A stretch of 64,000 nt of DNA from Lachnospiraceae bacterium (lineage in GTDB: Bacteria > Bacillota > Clostridia > Lachnospirales > Lachnospiraceae). The DNA lies in NCBI GenBank assembly GCA_017521605.1, contig JAFXCD010000028.1, forward strand, positions 1 through 64,000, read 5' to 3'. How positions within the stretch are numbered: position 1 is the stretch's first letter; the number at the start of each line of letters is the position of its first letter. A program made the translations under genes and the position numbers. Positions 29,059 through 58,746 of the stretch are shown here, piece by piece. The notes under the pieces were generated by a model. It was not told where the DNA came from. It did no database searches and was given only the letters and a program-made list of their open reading frames with translations.

Positions 29059-31710
29059 CTACTCTTCTTCCTTCTTTAGTAGTTCCTCAAAAGGGAAATA
29101 CCTCTCTCCTGGATTTTCAGCCTTCCACTCAGCCTGCCGCTCCCTGTCCACAGACTGTACTTCCTCAAGGAGTCCCTGGGCTGAAAGTCTGGTGGCGCCC
29201 TGGCCCCAAATTATCATTTGCTCCAAGGCATCAGAGGTAGCTACCGTCACATGGTATTTCCGACCGATTTCGTGGACTGTTTTCTCGATGTATTGGTCCG
29301 CGGTTTCCGCTTCCTTGGTATACACCACATAAATGTTGTGATATTTAGAAACACTTCCGGGATTTCCTTTCACCTTGTAAGCATCGAATACTACTATCAG
29401 TGTATTTTTTATATATCCCTGATAGTTGCACAAAATATCCAAAAGCTTACTTCTTGCCGACTCTATATTGGTCTTTGCCAGTTCCTTTAAATCTTCCCAT
29501 GCAAAGATAATGTTATAGCCATCCACCAACAAATATTCCTTCAGTTTCTCCTGTTTCTTAGAATTGTAAACTACTTCCTTAGGTGGTGCTGTTACCGTAC
29601 GTCTCACCGGTCGGTTCCAGGGATTCTTATCCTTAGCACGATGCCCGTAGGTACGCTCAAAAATCTCTTCTATTTCTTCCTGACTGATAAACCGGTCATC
29701 GTAGGAGGACATGTTTATAGAAAGCTGCTCCGGCTCCCCACATTCTGACTCTTGCCGTTCCGTTCCAACCCAGCCACTGTCCACATGGGCATAGTCTGCC
29801 ACCTGCTGCCAGTCCACATAAAAGCCTGCTCCGTGAGCACAGAATACAGAACCCGTTGGATTCTCTAAATCATGCTCGGAGTCATACCCATAAGCTTCTA
29901 TGATTTCCTCCTCATTATGACAGGGCTGATAACACTTAAACCGACATGCCAGCCTCCCCCTGCCACGGCTATAGGAAATCACCTCTGACTGGTAACCATT
30001 CATATTCACTACCGGTGCTGTGCCGGTTAACACAGATATTTCTCCGTAAGTCTGTGGGTCCTCAAATGTGCCCTTCATCCGTTGGACATCATTCATAGCT
30101 CTTCCTAAACATTCCGTAGGAATCTCCAACGTATATTCATAAACCGGCTCTAACAATCTACACTTGCCACTCTTTAATCCATGACGCACTGCACGATAGG
30201 TAGCCTGACGGAAATCACCGCCTTCTGTATGCTTCAAATGTGCTCTGCCGGCTATCAGAGTAATCTTCATATCCGTAATCTCTGAACCGGTAAGTACGCC
30301 CACATGAACCTTCTCCTCCAGATGGGTCAGTATCAGTCTCTGCCAGTTTTTATCCAGCTCATCCTCGCTGCAATCCGTAGCAAACACAAGACCACTACCG
30401 GCTTCCAAAGGCTCCAACAGTAGATGTACTTCCGCATAATGACGCAGGGGTTCAAAATGGCCGATGCCTTCCACCGGCTCCAGTATGGTTTCCTTATACA
30501 CGATACTTCCATCCCCAAACTCTACCGCCACACCAAATCGCTTCTCAATTATATCCTTTAAAATCTCTACCTGTACTTCCCCCATAACCTGAGCATGAAT
30601 TTCACTACTCTGCTCACGCCACACAATATGAAGCTCAGGAATTTCTTCTTCCAGTACATACAGATTTTTCAGCATTTTGTGGACATCACAACCTTCCGGA
30701 AGTTCTAAACGATAATTTAGTACCGGCACCATCACCGGCGCTTCTCCTTCTCCTACTGCCCCCAGACCCTGTCCACAGAAAGTGTCCGACAAACCGGTAA
30801 CCGCACAGATTCCACCTGCATTTACCACATCTGCCAATTGAAAGGAAGTTCCGTTGTAAATACGTAGTTGGTCCGCTTTCTCTTCACCAATCAGTTGCTT
30901 TACCTTTAATGCACCACCCAATACCTTCAAATGAGTCAGACGGCTTCCATTGTTATCCCGACTGATTTTATAGACTCTGGCCGCAAAATCCTCCCCATAT
31001 TCCGGCAAGGTGGTATACTTCACCATCCCATCCAAAAAGTCTTCTACACCCACACCTTTTAATGCAGAACCAAAGAAACAGGGAAACAGCCTTCTTTTCA
31101 CTATAGCCTTTTTCAGGCTTTCCACCTCTACCATGCCACTTCCCAAATACTGCTCCATCAGCTCTTCCGAACACATAGCCACAGTTTCCAGAACAACATC
31201 GTCTCCTGCTTCAAGCTGTTCAAAATCCACACAATTCTCATCCAGCTTGCATCTCAACTCTTCCAGTAATGCCTCTTTTTCCGTACCGGCCTGGTCCATT
31301 TTGTTTACAAACAAAAACACCGGTATTTCATAACGTTTCAATAGCTTCCACAGCGTCTCTACATGCCCCTGCACACCATCTGCACCACTGATGACCAGTA
31401 ACCCAAAATCCAACACTTGTAGAGTGCGCTCTGTTTCTGCCGAAAAATCCACATGCCCCGGTGTATCCAGCAAAGTAAGTTTTCTATCACCACTTTCCCT
31501 TTTCAAAAGCACCTCTGCCTGCTTGGAGAAAATGGTAATCCCCCTACTCCTTTCCAATTCATGGGAATCCAAAAAAGCATCCCCATGGTCCACACGTCCC
31601 AGCTTACGGATGCCTCCCGATAAATACAATATTTGTTCTGCCAGCGTGGTTTTCCCGGCATCTACATGGGCCAGTATACCCACCACTAATTTTTCAGACT
31701 GTCTGCTCAT
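29059..31710 (-). CDS. EF-G-like ribosome-protection GTPase fused to Rae1/YacP-type NYN ribonuclease
   Basis: 883 residues. About 1-650 follow the Tet(M)/EF-G layout: G1 AHVDAGKTTL (14-23), G3 DTPGHVDF, G4 NKMDQ, G5 SALKG, then domains II-V (GRAHLKHTEGGDFRQATYRAVRHGL, PVYEYTLEIPTECLGRAMNDVQ). A variable linker leads at about 725 to an NYN/PIN-like domain: LVDGYN (Asp730), VVFDAYK (Asp776), EAETADQYIE (Asp805), ATSD (Asp827), GQGATRLSAQGLLEEV. This closely follows B. subtilis Rae1 (YacP), which cuts mRNA in the ribosomal A site. The predicted protein could bring a nuclease to the A site with a translational GTPase. Tetracycline resistance cannot be assumed. SD GAGAGGAAA precedes ATG 31710. Confidence 0.9.
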   Translation of the reverse strand: MSRQSEKLVVGILAHVDAGKTTLAEQILYLSGGIRKLGRVDHGDAFLDSHELERSRGITIFSKQAEVLLKRESGDRKLTLLDTPGHVDFSAETERTLQVLDFGLLVISGADGVQGHVETLWKLLKRYEIPVFLFVNKMDQAGTEKEALLEELRCKLDENCVDFEQLEAGDDVVLETVAMCSEELMEQYLGSGMVEVESLKKAIVKRRLFPCFFGSALKGVGVEDFLDGMVKYTTLPEYGEDFAARVYKISRDNNGSRLTHLKVLGGALKVKQLIGEEKADQLRIYNGTSFQLADVVNAGGICAVTGLSDTFCGQGLGAVGEGEAPVMVPVLNYRLELPEGCDVHKMLKNLYVLEEEIPELHIVWREQSSEIHAQVMGEVQVEILKDIIEKRFGVAVEFGDGSIVYKETILEPVEGIGHFEPLRHYAEVHLLLEPLEAGSGLVFATDCSEDELDKNWQRLILTHLEEKVHVGVLTGSEITDMKITLIAGRAHLKHTEGGDFRQATYRAVRHGLKSGKCRLLEPVYEYTLEIPTECLGRAMNDVQRMKGTFEDPQTYGEISVLTGTAPVVNMNGYQSEVISYSRGRGRLACRFKCYQPCHNEEEIIEAYGYDSEHDLENPTGSVFCAHGAGFYVDWQQVADYAHVDSGWVGTERQESECGEPEQLSINMSSYDDRFISQEEIEEIFERTYGHRAKDKNPWNRPVRRTVTAPPKEVVYNSKKQEKLKEYLLVDGYNIIFAWEDLKELAKTNIESARSKLLDILCNYQGYIKNTLIVVFDAYKVKGNPGSVSKYHNIYVVYTKEAETADQYIEKTVHEIGRKYHVTVATSDALEQMIIWGQGATRLSAQGLLEEVQSVDRERQAEWKAENPGERYFPFEELLKKEEE

Positions 31711-31732: not shown

Positions 31733-31768
31733 ACCCAAGACCCTGATAAATACTAACCAAAGTCTTGG
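31733..31768 (-). terminator. Hairpin between the LUD gene and the GTPase-nuclease gene
   Basis: ACCCAAGAC and GTCTTGGGT (9-bp arms) across a long AT-rich loop. Only a weak T-content follows on the minus strand, so read-through into the fusion gene is possible. Confidence 0.4.
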
Positions 31769-31780
31769 GTATCCTTTTTC

Positions 31781-32431: not shown

Positions 32432-33358
32432 TTACTGTCCTAATATTTCTGCTATTTTTTCTATCATTTCATCTTCCTTCAAACGGAACTTGATTTCCAC
32501 TCGTCTGGAAGCTTCCATATCAATTACTTGGGAATTGGTTTTATATACCGGTGAACTGAAGGAACGTCCATTTACTGTCAGCATGGTTTGCAGACGGGCA
32601 ATCTGTGATTCATTCAGTCCGTTCTTTTGATCCAGACAAAACTGTGCTACTGCCATGGCACGCTCTGTGGAAAGCTCCATATTGGTCTTATAGCTTCCGG
32701 AGGTGTCAGTATGTCCTTCAATAATAATCTCAGCAATATAATCCTTGTATGCATCCTGTAACAAAACATCCAGATAAACAGGTATAATCTCCTTTAAGGA
32801 CTCCTTACTTGGGTCCGTCAGTGTGGACTTACCATATTCAAATAATACGTCGGAAGAAAAGGTAATAGAACCGTTCACCGGATCCACTCTCATACTGGAA
32901 TTATTAAACTTGCTCTGCAACTCACCGATAATATCCGTTCGAATTCCTACGATATTTTTCAGCTCTGTTTTCGTATAAGCCAGCTCTGCCTTTGCATTAT
33001 CAATTTCCAAATAAGCAGCATCCAACTCTTCCTTGGTCAGCTGTGCTGCCTGATAAGCATCCTGCAGCTTAATCAGTGAATTCTCCAACTCTGTTTTTGA
33101 GGCATCAATCTCCAGCCGGTAGCTCTCAAGATCCAGCTTGGCCAGCTCCAGCTCGTCCGAAGCTGCTTTCAGGGCAATGGAAGCCTTGTCCAGTTTCGTC
33201 TGCGTCAACTCCAGAGTGTTGGTCTTTTGCTTGTAAATTGCTAATGTAATAGCAATAATCAATATAAATATTAATAGCAATGCCGCCATCATGTCTGAGT
33301 AAGACTGCCAATAGCTTTCCTCTCCATAAGCGGCTTTACTTCTTCTGTTCTTTCTCAT
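32432..33358 (-). CDS. MotB/ZorB-like protein with OmpA peptidoglycan-binding domain
   Basis: 308 residues from ATG 33358. A cytoplasmic N-terminus leads to one membrane helix (MMAALLLIFILIIAITLAIY) with Asp22 in SYSDMM, where MotB-type stators carry the ion-binding Asp. A long coiled coil follows (about 45-150, heptads rich in Leu/Glu/Lys). The OmpA-like domain is at about 170-300 (SDVLFEYGKSTL, IIEGHTDTSGSYKTNMELSTERAMAV). It is 36 bp after the MotA-like gene. Flagellar genes are absent nearby. The periplasmic-equivalent coiled coil is longer than in MotB. Confidence 0.85.
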   Translation of the reverse strand: MRKNRRSKAAYGEESYWQSYSDMMAALLLIFILIIAITLAIYKQKTNTLELTQTKLDKASIALKAASDELELAKLDLESYRLEIDASKTELENSLIKLQDAYQAAQLTKEELDAAYLEIDNAKAELAYTKTELKNIVGIRTDIIGELQSKFNNSSMRVDPVNGSITFSSDVLFEYGKSTLTDPSKESLKEIIPVYLDVLLQDAYKDYIAEIIIEGHTDTSGSYKTNMELSTERAMAVAQFCLDQKNGLNESQIARLQTMLTVNGRSFSSPVYKTNSQVIDMEASRRVEIKFRLKEDEMIEKIAEILGQ

Positions 33359-33394
33359 AAAGCCTCTCAATCTGCTGCAAATGTGCAACTGCTT

Positions 33395-34546
33395 CTACAC
33401 GTCCTTCAATAGACCGAAGGTATACAACTGACTGCTGATTTCATCATTAATGGTATCGCAGGTCTCATCAATCTTTTCCTGCTGAGCCTTTAACTCTCTT
33501 GCCAGAGCCTCCTGGTTCGCCATAGTGGTCTCCAGGGTTTGCTGTAAGGTCAGGCTGGCACCTAAAAGCTGTCTGGTGGTATCTTCCATACTCTTGTAAT
33601 TTTCTGCATAAATCTGCTGTGCATCGCAAGCCTTGGAAAGAGTATTACCCAGCTTAGCGAAATCACTTCCCATGCTTTGTTCCAGCTGCTGCAGAAACTG
33701 ATGTACAATCACTTCCACCCCTCTGGTCTGTTCCATGGCATTCCCCTGCAACAGTTCTGTAATCTGCTTCAAATAATTGGCGGTATTAGCCTGATATATC
33801 AGCATGGCTTTGCTGTTTTCATCAGCAGTAACCACTACCGGCTCCACACACTCCCTGAAGCAGTCCAAAAACTCTGCCAGCTTTTCATAGGCATCGGACA
33901 TAATTCCACGATACACAAATGTAAAAATCAGCGAGAAGAAAATACCATACACCGAGGTATGGAAGGCCACCTTCATACCTTCCAGTAAAGGTCCGATATT
34001 CTCTGAAATGGTATAAATATCATTTCCGCTAAAGGAACCTAAACCGATGGATAAACCAATAAAGGTACCCAGAATACCTAATCCTGTCATAGTGCCGGAA
34101 ATAGCTGAATTAAAATAGGTTTTACCTACTCTGTTAATCACTTCTTCATTAATATAATCTTCAATATCGCAACCACCTACCATACCACGCTTAGTGTAAT
34201 AGTTTCTCATACGCTTCTGATAACGCAGGAATGCATCATCCAATACTTCATCCCCGAAAGGTTGTTTTTTCTTTGCATACTCTTCCCAAAGCTTGTGATT
34301 ACCGGAATCATAAGCCTTATAAATCTGATCCGTTACCAACAACAAAGAATCTGTACAACGATTCAAGCGAATAAAGCTAATTGTAGAAATTAGAAATAAA
34401 ATACCGATAATCACCAAAAAACCAATATTAATCACTAAATTCCACGGATCTGTTGCCTGTCCCGTAAAAATCCCATTGATGTACAAAATTACAATCACCA
34501 TTGCTATGTACATTAAAAACAGAAAATAATACAGTTTGTTTTTCAT
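33395..34546 (-). CDS. MotA/TolQ/ExbB-like (ZorA-like) channel protein
   Basis: 383 residues. Membrane segments at about 6-25 and 38-60 are followed by a soluble stretch and two conserved helices at about 150-225: SAISGTMTGLGILGTFIGLSIGLGSF and VAFHTSVYGIFFSLIFTFVYRGI, the MotA/ExbB signature region. The C-terminal 150 residues are a predicted cytoplasmic coiled coil. This architecture, with the OmpA-type partner directly downstream, recalls ZorA/ZorB of Zorya defence systems and other non-flagellar ion-driven motors. No zorC, zorD or zorE homologue is visible. SD AAAGGAGGAG is strong. Confidence 0.85.
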   Translation of the reverse strand: MKNKLYYFLFLMYIAMVIVILYINGIFTGQATDPWNLVINIGFLVIIGILFLISTISFIRLNRCTDSLLLVTDQIYKAYDSGNHKLWEEYAKKKQPFGDEVLDDAFLRYQKRMRNYYTKRGMVGGCDIEDYINEEVINRVGKTYFNSAISGTMTGLGILGTFIGLSIGLGSFSGNDIYTISENIGPLLEGMKVAFHTSVYGIFFSLIFTFVYRGIMSDAYEKLAEFLDCFRECVEPVVVTADENSKAMLIYQANTANYLKQITELLQGNAMEQTRGVEVIVHQFLQQLEQSMGSDFAKLGNTLSKACDAQQIYAENYKSMEDTTRQLLGASLTLQQTLETTMANQEALARELKAQQEKIDETCDTINDEISSQLYTFGLLKDV

Positions 34547-58147: not shown

Positions 58148-58746
58148 GTCGAGTAGACTAGTGCCTCACGACACTAGCCCCTCACAAAACCGTACGTGCA
58201 GCTTTCCCGCATACGGCTTTTCATAATAGCATTCTTCTATACTTACCAATTTCGTTCCCATTATTTCCTCCGTCCCTGAGTACGGATAATGTGTCCTTGA
58301 TAAGAACGCTATTATGTAGCTCCCTTCCCTCCACTGGCATTACTCAGTTTCCTCGGTACTATGAAGCTATCCGACTGCCTACCACTCATCCGTCCACCCC
58401 ATCTTCTAGTTGGTGTAACGTACTTGTTTCCAAGAATCGATAGGCTCTCCCCAGTTGACTAATTAACCACAATGTCAAGCATGATTGGCTCTTTGACCCC
58501 GCAGTGCCATGCAGTTCTCGCCTTTAACGCTCTGCATGATGTTGCTTTCCGTGTGAAGTACCACATCTGCCCTCTGATTTAAGAAACCTTTCGAGGCTCA
58601 ATCGCATTGCAACCCTACTTGCTTGCTGTCTACGCTTAACTCCCACCATTGCTGATGACAGCTCAAGACTCGCTACTGTTGGTTGGCTAAACCTTAATCA
58701 GACAGGATTTCCACCTGTTAGGTTAATTGCCCTTGGCTGGGCGCAC
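58148..58746 (-). mobile_element. ORF-less group II intron
   Basis: A 599-nt minus-strand element. The 5' end GTGCGCCC at 58746 fits the GUGYG consensus. Near the 3' end there is a domain V hairpin with the AGC triad (58186-58219) and a domain VI stem (CTAGTG/CACTAG), then a CTACTCGAC end at 58148. A candidate EBS1, ACTTCA (58554-58559, minus), is complementary to TGAAGT, the six bases just before the 5' splice site (58747-58752). No reverse transcriptase/maturase frame is inside. Splicing would rely on a maturase elsewhere, or the intron may be inactive. It lies between two genes and in their orientation. Confidence 0.82.
58154..58220 (-). ncRNA. Group II intron domains V and VI
   Basis: Domain V, 58186-58219: AGCCGTATGC starts the 5' strand with the AGC catalytic triad, GAAA lies in the loop, and GCACGTACGGTT forms the 3' strand with a CG bulge. 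Domain VI follows with the CTAGTG/CACTAG stem (58158-58163 and 58172-58177) and a 3' A-containing segment as branch-point candidate. Confidence 0.8.

Follow-up and report, generated by a model that had tools for sequence, protein, structure and literature searches.

An EF-G-like GTPase fused to a Rae1-type nuclease is the usual form of this nuclease in sampled Lachnospiraceae genomes

The window analysed here (64,000 nucleotides, positions 1 to 64,000 of the forward strand of contig JAFXCD010000028.1, Lachnospiraceae bacterium assembly GCA_017521605.1) carries a single open reading frame (ORF) of 883 amino acids (aa) at 29059-31710 on the minus strand, with an ATG start and zero internal stops, in which a translational GTPase resembling elongation factor G (EF-G) is joined to a C-terminal NYN_YacP domain of the type found in Bacillus subtilis Rae1/YacP. 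In a sample of 298 Lachnospiraceae genomes the nuclease usually takes this fused form. The reading we favour, to which we give about an even chance, is that of a housekeeping ribosome-quality-control nuclease, a Rae1-type NYN domain that would be brought to slow or stalled A sites by the attached EF-G-like GTPase. Its observed basis consists of the domains, their intact motifs, the constraint on both halves, and a fused domain that is the sole YacP match of the source genome and is joined by no second YacP above the cut-off in any of 51 fusion genomes of a class-wide sample. Ribosome binding, selection of stalled ribosomes, GTP gating, the order of steps and mRNA cleavage by the fusion we infer.

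The domain order proposed in the first-pass annotation, an EF-G-type GTPase followed by an NYN domain in one chain, agrees with the Pfam profile search. The NYN_YacP match (residues 727-869, E = 1e-49) scored 169 bits against a cut-off of 24.6, and in a sequence search of solved structures the last 164 aa matched B. subtilis YacP (5mq8/5mq9) at 5e-31, these being the only two distinct solved sequences matched at E<=1; with the invariance of its acidic residues this bears out the assignment of the C-terminal domain to the Rae1/YacP type. The four conserved acidic residues (Asp730, Asp776, Asp805 and Asp827) we take to be the active site. The GTPase half has domains G, III, IV and V together with intact GTP-binding motifs, as in the EF2 family of translational GTPases. 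Of the domain edges first proposed, the start of the NYN domain at about residue 725 could be kept and the end of the EF-G part was moved from about residue 650 to near residue 600; between them lie a conserved module up to about residue 645 and then a linker of about 80 aa, whose one conserved stretch is a short E-I/L-x-x-IFxRTYG segment (about residues 679-689). In the source genome (92.9% complete) the fusion gene gave the sole NYN_YacP match and, for the GTPase profile, the one strong match, with seven other rows reaching at most 152 bits.

Conservation was assessed in loci from a scan of named-species genomes, which retained the best 80 of 123 and so favours close relatives; the query and these 80 loci gave an alignment of 81 rows. 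The hosts were Lachnospiraceae, Oscillospiraceae and others including Paradesulfitobacterium and Ruminiclostridium. Both halves lay in one frame in 80/80 loci, one of which (L047) is broken inside the NYN domain by a contig end. This single frame, together with the long frames seen class-wide and in the family sample, led us to reject an artefact joining the frames of two genes. The acidic residues are kept across homologues, as first proposed: D730, D776 and D805 were present in 81/81 aligned fusions and D827 in 80/81, the gap being the contig-cut L047. G19-K20-T21 and H86 were likewise found in 81/81. In 56 members scanned separately, GTP_EFTU, EFG_IV, EFG_C and NYN_YacP were detected in all 56; for EF-G domain II, 41 of them matched the model at E<=0.001, a value that the query did not attain. 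The ratio of nonsynonymous to synonymous substitution rates (dN/dS) between the query and L031 (88% identical) was 0.049 for the GTPase and 0.024 for the NYN domain, figures that are rough since synonymous sites are near saturation in this single pair (dS 1.5 and 1.9, respectively); they suggest strong constraint on both halves.

In the family sample, YacP was found in 270 genomes and the GTPase, at 1e-160, in 262. Altogether 257 genomes carried fused copies or fused fragments, 10 had the two parts as separate genes, 2 had YacP alone, one was left undetermined and 28 had neither; no GTPase occurred without YacP (0/262), and none of the 28 genomes lacking YacP had the GTPase. Eight YacP genomes fell below the GTPase threshold: G115, G141, G170 and G175 hold split, partial or shortened fusions, G209 was counted as fused, the match of G250 lies at a contig edge, and G065 and G114 carry true standalone YacPs. 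Among the rows counted as fused, those of G115, G138, G141, G170, G175, G179, G252 and G273 are copies that are split, frameshifted, shortened or broken by a contig end. Many fused calls come from frame length, with the in-frame NYN domain deduced from it; that for G209 comes from a 931-aa frame around the NYN match alone, its GTPase match not reaching 1e-125, and for unlisted genomes with E = 0 the score alone decided in favour of a fusion, 873.6 bits being the highest value reached by an unfused copy. The frame of 690 aa in G175 (C43:27866-29824) has GTPase residues 3-402 followed by the NYN domain; as domains IV and V would not fit in between, it may be an internally shortened fusion.

In the ten genomes with separate genes the parts lie on different contigs, and the GTPase of one (G142) is truncated to 541 aa. 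Among the 40 family genomes without a fusion, with G250 excluded and the truncated GTPase of G142 counted as present, both parts were found in 10, YacP only in 2, GTPase only in 0 and neither in 28 (Fisher test, 8e-8; 8e-7 with the G142 GTPase counted as lost, 2e-6 with G250 also counted as YacP only); these values take no account of relatedness among genomes. The distribution in Lachnospiraceae thus favours a functional link between the parts, which the class-wide distribution does not.

For the class-wide sample, the same 137 genomes were searched with the GTPase profile and with NYN_YacP, and the matches were sorted by hand according to frame length and place. A fusion was present in 51 genomes (including a split copy in G400 and partial ones in G417 and G426), a standalone YacP in 41, and an unfused GTPase in 7, three of these with YacP. 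No second YacP above the cut-off was found in any of the 51 fusion genomes, one of which has a 21-bit match below it; since 41 others carry a standalone YacP, the fused NYN domain appears to stand in for Rae1 in fusion genomes. Phylum-wide, 15/199 genomes matched the GTPase profile at 1e-140: twelve had frames of 857-909 aa (source genome included), one had an unfused frame of 651 aa, and the remaining two matches, below 500 bits, were other factors.

The GTPase had been described as Tet(M)-type. This description stands in so far as tet_protect is the best NCBIfam model, and fails in that the match scores 395.4 bits with 775 required, the domain IV tip is a different one and the protein falls in a clade of its own. 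In an alignment with four Tet-type comparators, the tip loop SPVSTPADFR of Tet(M/O/W) faces HLKHTEGGDFR in the fusion, where residues 494-495 and 497-501 are invariant in the 81 fusions and Lys493, a Lys in 80/81, occupies the proline column of Tet(M/O/W). Pro509 of Tet(M) sits in the tetracycline site, according to the passage on it in PMC8161019; the loop proline of the Tet(M) sequence compared here is at position 512, and the two are probably the same residue. The fusions also carry a module with the motif SVFCxHGAG after domain V, which is absent from the Tet proteins compared.

Two quick GTPase trees were calculated, with support from the Shimodaira-Hasegawa-like approximate likelihood ratio test (SH-aLRT) only, rooting not inferred, and EF-G rows on long branches. 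In tree 1 (86 rows) the 65 fused rows group as a single clade (SH-aLRT 99), which nine unfused rows adjoin. In tree 2 (76 rows with family and plasmid copies, 23 rows being left out, EF-G and otr(A)-like among them) the separation of fused from unfused rows is less clean and needs two changes: L205 of Ligilactobacillus salivarius adjoins one fused row, the position of L214 is unresolved, and 8/9 unfused family GTPases group with other unfused GTPases. In both trees the clade is split from Tet(M/O/W) at SH-aLRT 100, within a Tet comparison set without TetB(P) of Clostridium perfringens. Unfused GTPases with a KHTxGGDFR-type tip exist (for example in G415, G480, G459, G381, G229 and G329), and most end soon after a similar C-terminal module; their stop-to-stop frames measure 651-706 aa, G142 being the exception with a frame of 541 aa that ends after domain IV. 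In Bacilli, unfused GTPases with an SVFC/SIFC module lie on large plasmid records of Ligilactobacillus salivarius (L205) and Paenibacillus cellulosilyticus (L206).

These data bear on antibiotic ribosome protection, an alternative in which a Tet-like factor would act together with an RNase step, as proposed in 2015, the NYN domain then being thought to act on rRNA or tRNA. Besides the ranking of tet_protect, it draws on the RNase-based resistance suggested in the passages on these proteins in PMC4342817 and on the annotation of a 933-aa fusion on an Agathobacter rectalis plasmid record (NZ_CP143948.1, L207) as a TetM/TetW/TetO/TetS family tetracycline resistance protein; a Monoglobus fusion bears the name translation factor GTPase family protein. 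The low tet_protect score, the absence of the SPVST loop, the Lys in the proline column, the separate clade, and the presence of the fusion in most Lachnospiraceae genomes at places without a conserved neighbourhood all speak against tetracycline protection, and protection against another A-site ligand would be compatible with tip, score, clade and distribution alike. We consider antibiotic protection improbable. A recent mobile resistance gene was considered as well and rejected: any neighbour family is common to at most 8/81 loci, and of 1234 plasmid records matched, only 2 span 80% of the query. Fusions named tetracycline resistance, of which there is at least one public record, could inflate resistance-gene counts in gut commensals, given that the Tet tip loop is missing from the clade and the query protein scores below the tet_protect cut-off.

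The history of the nuclease half was followed in a tree of 94 NYN domains (L123 left out; 200 bootstraps, bootstrap not settled). One side (100/98) consists of the 20 class-wide standalone copies, and the ten Lachnospiraceae standalone copies form one group (97/90) on the fused side, where their placement is unresolved. The fused rows need two changes, and one change suffices in 67% of the 200 bootstraps. A single origin of the fusion is thus clean in GTPase tree 1, and two changes are needed in GTPase tree 2 and in the NYN tree. Most columns that are invariant in standalone YacPs are at least 92% conserved in fused copies, with the clear exception of Arg841, which is found in 40/40 standalone YacPs and is Arg in 32/64 and Leu or Val in 32/64 fused rows (in the separate alignment of 81 fusions, Arg in 48). 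Its loss in half of the fused rows could mean that a tether makes a binding contact dispensable.

In EF-G and Tet proteins it is domain IV that extends into the A site. The simplest combination, in which the GTPase would find the ribosome and the NYN domain would cut A-site mRNA, builds on published roles: in the passages concerned, Rae1 is an A-site endoribonuclease with mRNA as its substrate, whose access is hypothesised to occur when ribosomes stall (PMC6613710), and Tet-type factors overlap the EF-G site and A-site tetracycline (PMC8161019). PMC11780869 names S1025 as a substrate of Rae1. In the sequence of steps that we propose, the GTP form would bind the factor site and the tip of domain IV would enter an empty A site, so that a ribosome already holding an accommodated tRNA or factor would not be engaged. 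GTP hydrolysis would release domain IV or swing it out, whereupon the NYN domain, on its linker of about 80 residues from the C-terminal side of domain V, would enter the vacated A site and cut the mRNA codon there. Such a GTP-gated machine, in which the GTPase would check ribosomes for a stalled A site that is empty and, once GTP is hydrolysed, pass this site on to a tethered Rae1, is the more tentative part of our proposal and has, in our judgement, a less than even chance. If true, mRNA decay in many Clostridia would be a GTP-licensed ribosome-surveillance step and not a matter of passive A-site competition. How Rae1 chooses its ribosomes is still a hypothesis in the passages of PMC6613710 that treat it; the fusion supplies a built-in hypothesis, GTP-gated delivery, is kept in most sampled Lachnospiraceae genomes and offers clean mutants for testing such delivery.

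Several observations weigh against the proposal. Competition for one space would be expected between domain IV and Rae1, which makes the order of steps a guess. Among the class-wide genomes without a fusion, both parts were found in 3, YacP only in 38, GTPase only in 4 and neither in 41 (Fisher test, p = 1.0), a lack of association implying that each half can exist without the other. Two YacP matches occurred in 5/270 family genomes (G090, G121, G170, G205 and G292); the one pair that was resolved, in G170, consists of neighbouring pieces of one frame. In a sample of 61 genomes, G008 carries two fusion-type copies and G056 has a fusion-length frame plus an extra partial YacP match of 27 bits, just over the cut-off. 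Arg841, finally, is kept in the query protein as well as in the 32/64 fused rows.

The same class-wide counts bear on simple tethering, in which the GTPase would have another job at the ribosome (translocation aid, subunit splitting or biogenesis), hydrolysis would not gate cleavage and the NYN domain would gain only a raised concentration at the ribosome. The 4/137 class genomes with an unfused GTPase and no YacP at all, the 38/137 with YacP and no GTPase, the long and variable linker and the unfused copies on Ligilactobacillus and Paenibacillus plasmid records are in line with such an arrangement. However, separate genes are kept together in Lachnospiraceae (10/2/0/28), and the retention of the fusion across many families, as one clade in tree 1, suggests more than convenience, so that we regard simple tethering as rather unlikely.

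A role in rRNA or tRNA processing, in which the NYN domain would trim stable RNA and the GTPase would recognise ribosomal particles, seems to us the least probable of the alternatives, slightly behind antibiotic protection. It goes back to an early proposal that NYN domains act in rRNA/tRNA maturation, as cited in the relevant passage of PMC4342817, and accords with the co-transcription of B. subtilis rae1 with yacO, a 23S methyltransferase homologue, described in part of PMC6613710; the same source, however, has Rae1 later reported as a ribosomal A-site endoribonuclease with mRNA as substrate. No neighbour family was common to more than 8/81 loci, some of which have short flanks, and by eye none of the 14 largest families was recognised as rRNA-related. 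The fused nuclease is no free small protein beside an rlmB/yacO-type methyltransferase gene, and a search for SpoU-methylase gave no match on the window's contig (C19) and five matches elsewhere.

The features of the fusion gene are listed in Table 1.

Table 1. Features of the fusion gene, with positions in the window
Feature	Positions	Strand	Basis
Whole gene, 883 aa + stop: EF-G-like GTPase fused to NYN_YacP	29059..31710	-	ORF and Pfam
GTPase (G) domain GTP_EFTU, residues 9-233, GTP-binding motifs intact	31012..31686	-	Pfam 1.2e-47, alignment
EF-G domain III (EFG_III), residues 329-399	30514..30726	-	Pfam 9.3e-7
EF-G domain IV (EFG_IV), residues 402-515	30166..30507	-	Pfam 1e-16
Domain IV conserved segment GHFEPLRHYAEV, residues 417-428	30427..30462	-	Columns mostly invariant or near-invariant
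Domain IV tip loop H-x-KHTEGGDFR, residues 491-501 (Tet counterpart SPVSTPADFR)	30208..30240	-	Alignment
EF-G domain V / C-terminus (EFG_C), residues 518-600	29911..30159	-	Pfam 1.1e-19
Conserved C-terminal module, residues 601-645, motif SVFCxHGAG	29776..29910	-	Alignment
Linker, residues 646-724, ~80 aa, variable	29539..29775	-	Alignment
NYN_YacP (Rae1-type) nuclease domain, residues 725-883	29062..29538	-	Pfam, solved-structure sequence match
Asp730 codon	29521..29523	-	81/81 fusions; invariant in 40 standalone YacPs
Asp776 codon	29383..29385	-	81/81 fusions; invariant in 40 standalone YacPs
Asp805 codon	29296..29298	-	81/81 fusions; invariant in 40 standalone YacPs
Asp827 codon	29230..29232	-	80/81 fusions and one contig-cut row; invariant in 40 standalone YacPs

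Just upstream of the start codon of the fusion, at 31733-31770, lies a 9-bp perfect inverted repeat (ACCCAAGAC / GTCTTGGGT), which also occurs in L031 and was not seen by eye in 12 other upstream regions. An upstream LUD gene and a gene with an OmpA-like end are common to 5/81 loci, namely the source locus and near relatives; at 32432-34546 (minus strand) of the window a MotA/ExbB-type protein (Pfam) adjoins a protein with an OmpA-like C-terminus (by reading), whose family is the one found upstream of the fusion in these 5/81 loci. No Rfam family reached threshold at the fusion gene, the only Rfam element in the window being a group II intron at 58148-58711 (minus strand; RF02005, 149.8 bits, and RF00029, 58.1 bits, with about 265 bases between the two matches); as no ORF of at least 100 aa lies between them, this looks like an intron without reverse transcriptase. 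A PADLOC search gave no match. Two unannotated phage records from human faeces ("Bacteriophage sp.", MT835563.1 and MT835514.1; H31 and H32) match 95-97% of the fusion at 51-56% identity and represent either true phage cargo or bacterial contamination.

The fusion architecture is already published: the passages on it in Atkinson 2015 (PMC4342817) describe the gain of an RNase domain, a YacP-like NYN, by Tet proteins in ten species of Clostridiales and suggest a new kind of resistance that makes use of RNase activity. Among the matches listed in the open-licence literature searched there were no further papers on the fusion, nor did that literature yield activity data for any fusion. Beyond those passages of Atkinson 2015, the extent of the fusion, the pattern of Rae1 replacement, the separate GTPase clade with its tip, and the joint retention in Lachnospiraceae are new. 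Compared by description and not by sequence, the published Tet-NYN proteins and those studied here have the same domain architecture and come from the same bacterial group; in the passages cited they are called Tet and come from ten species, whereas here the fusion dominates the family sample of 298 genomes and has a GTPase whose clade is distinct from Tet(M/O/W). With B. subtilis Rae1/YacP (5mq8, 5mq9) the fusion has in common a homologous nuclease domain and four acidic residues in equivalent contexts. That Rae1 is a free protein (solved chain of 181 residues) co-transcribed with yacO, according to the part of PMC6613710 that describes it, whereas in the fusion the nuclease is the C-terminus of a GTPase whose gene has no conserved neighbours. 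Tet(M), Tet(O) and Tet(W) have EF-G-like domains in common with the fusion, at 28-29% identity over about 585 residues; the fusion differs from them in its domain IV tip, its extra SVFCxHGAG module, its separate clade and its score below the tet_protect cut-off. The unfused GTPases of the clade, finally, have the KHTxGGDFR-type tip and mostly the C-terminal module in common with the fusion and differ from it in being without the NYN domain.

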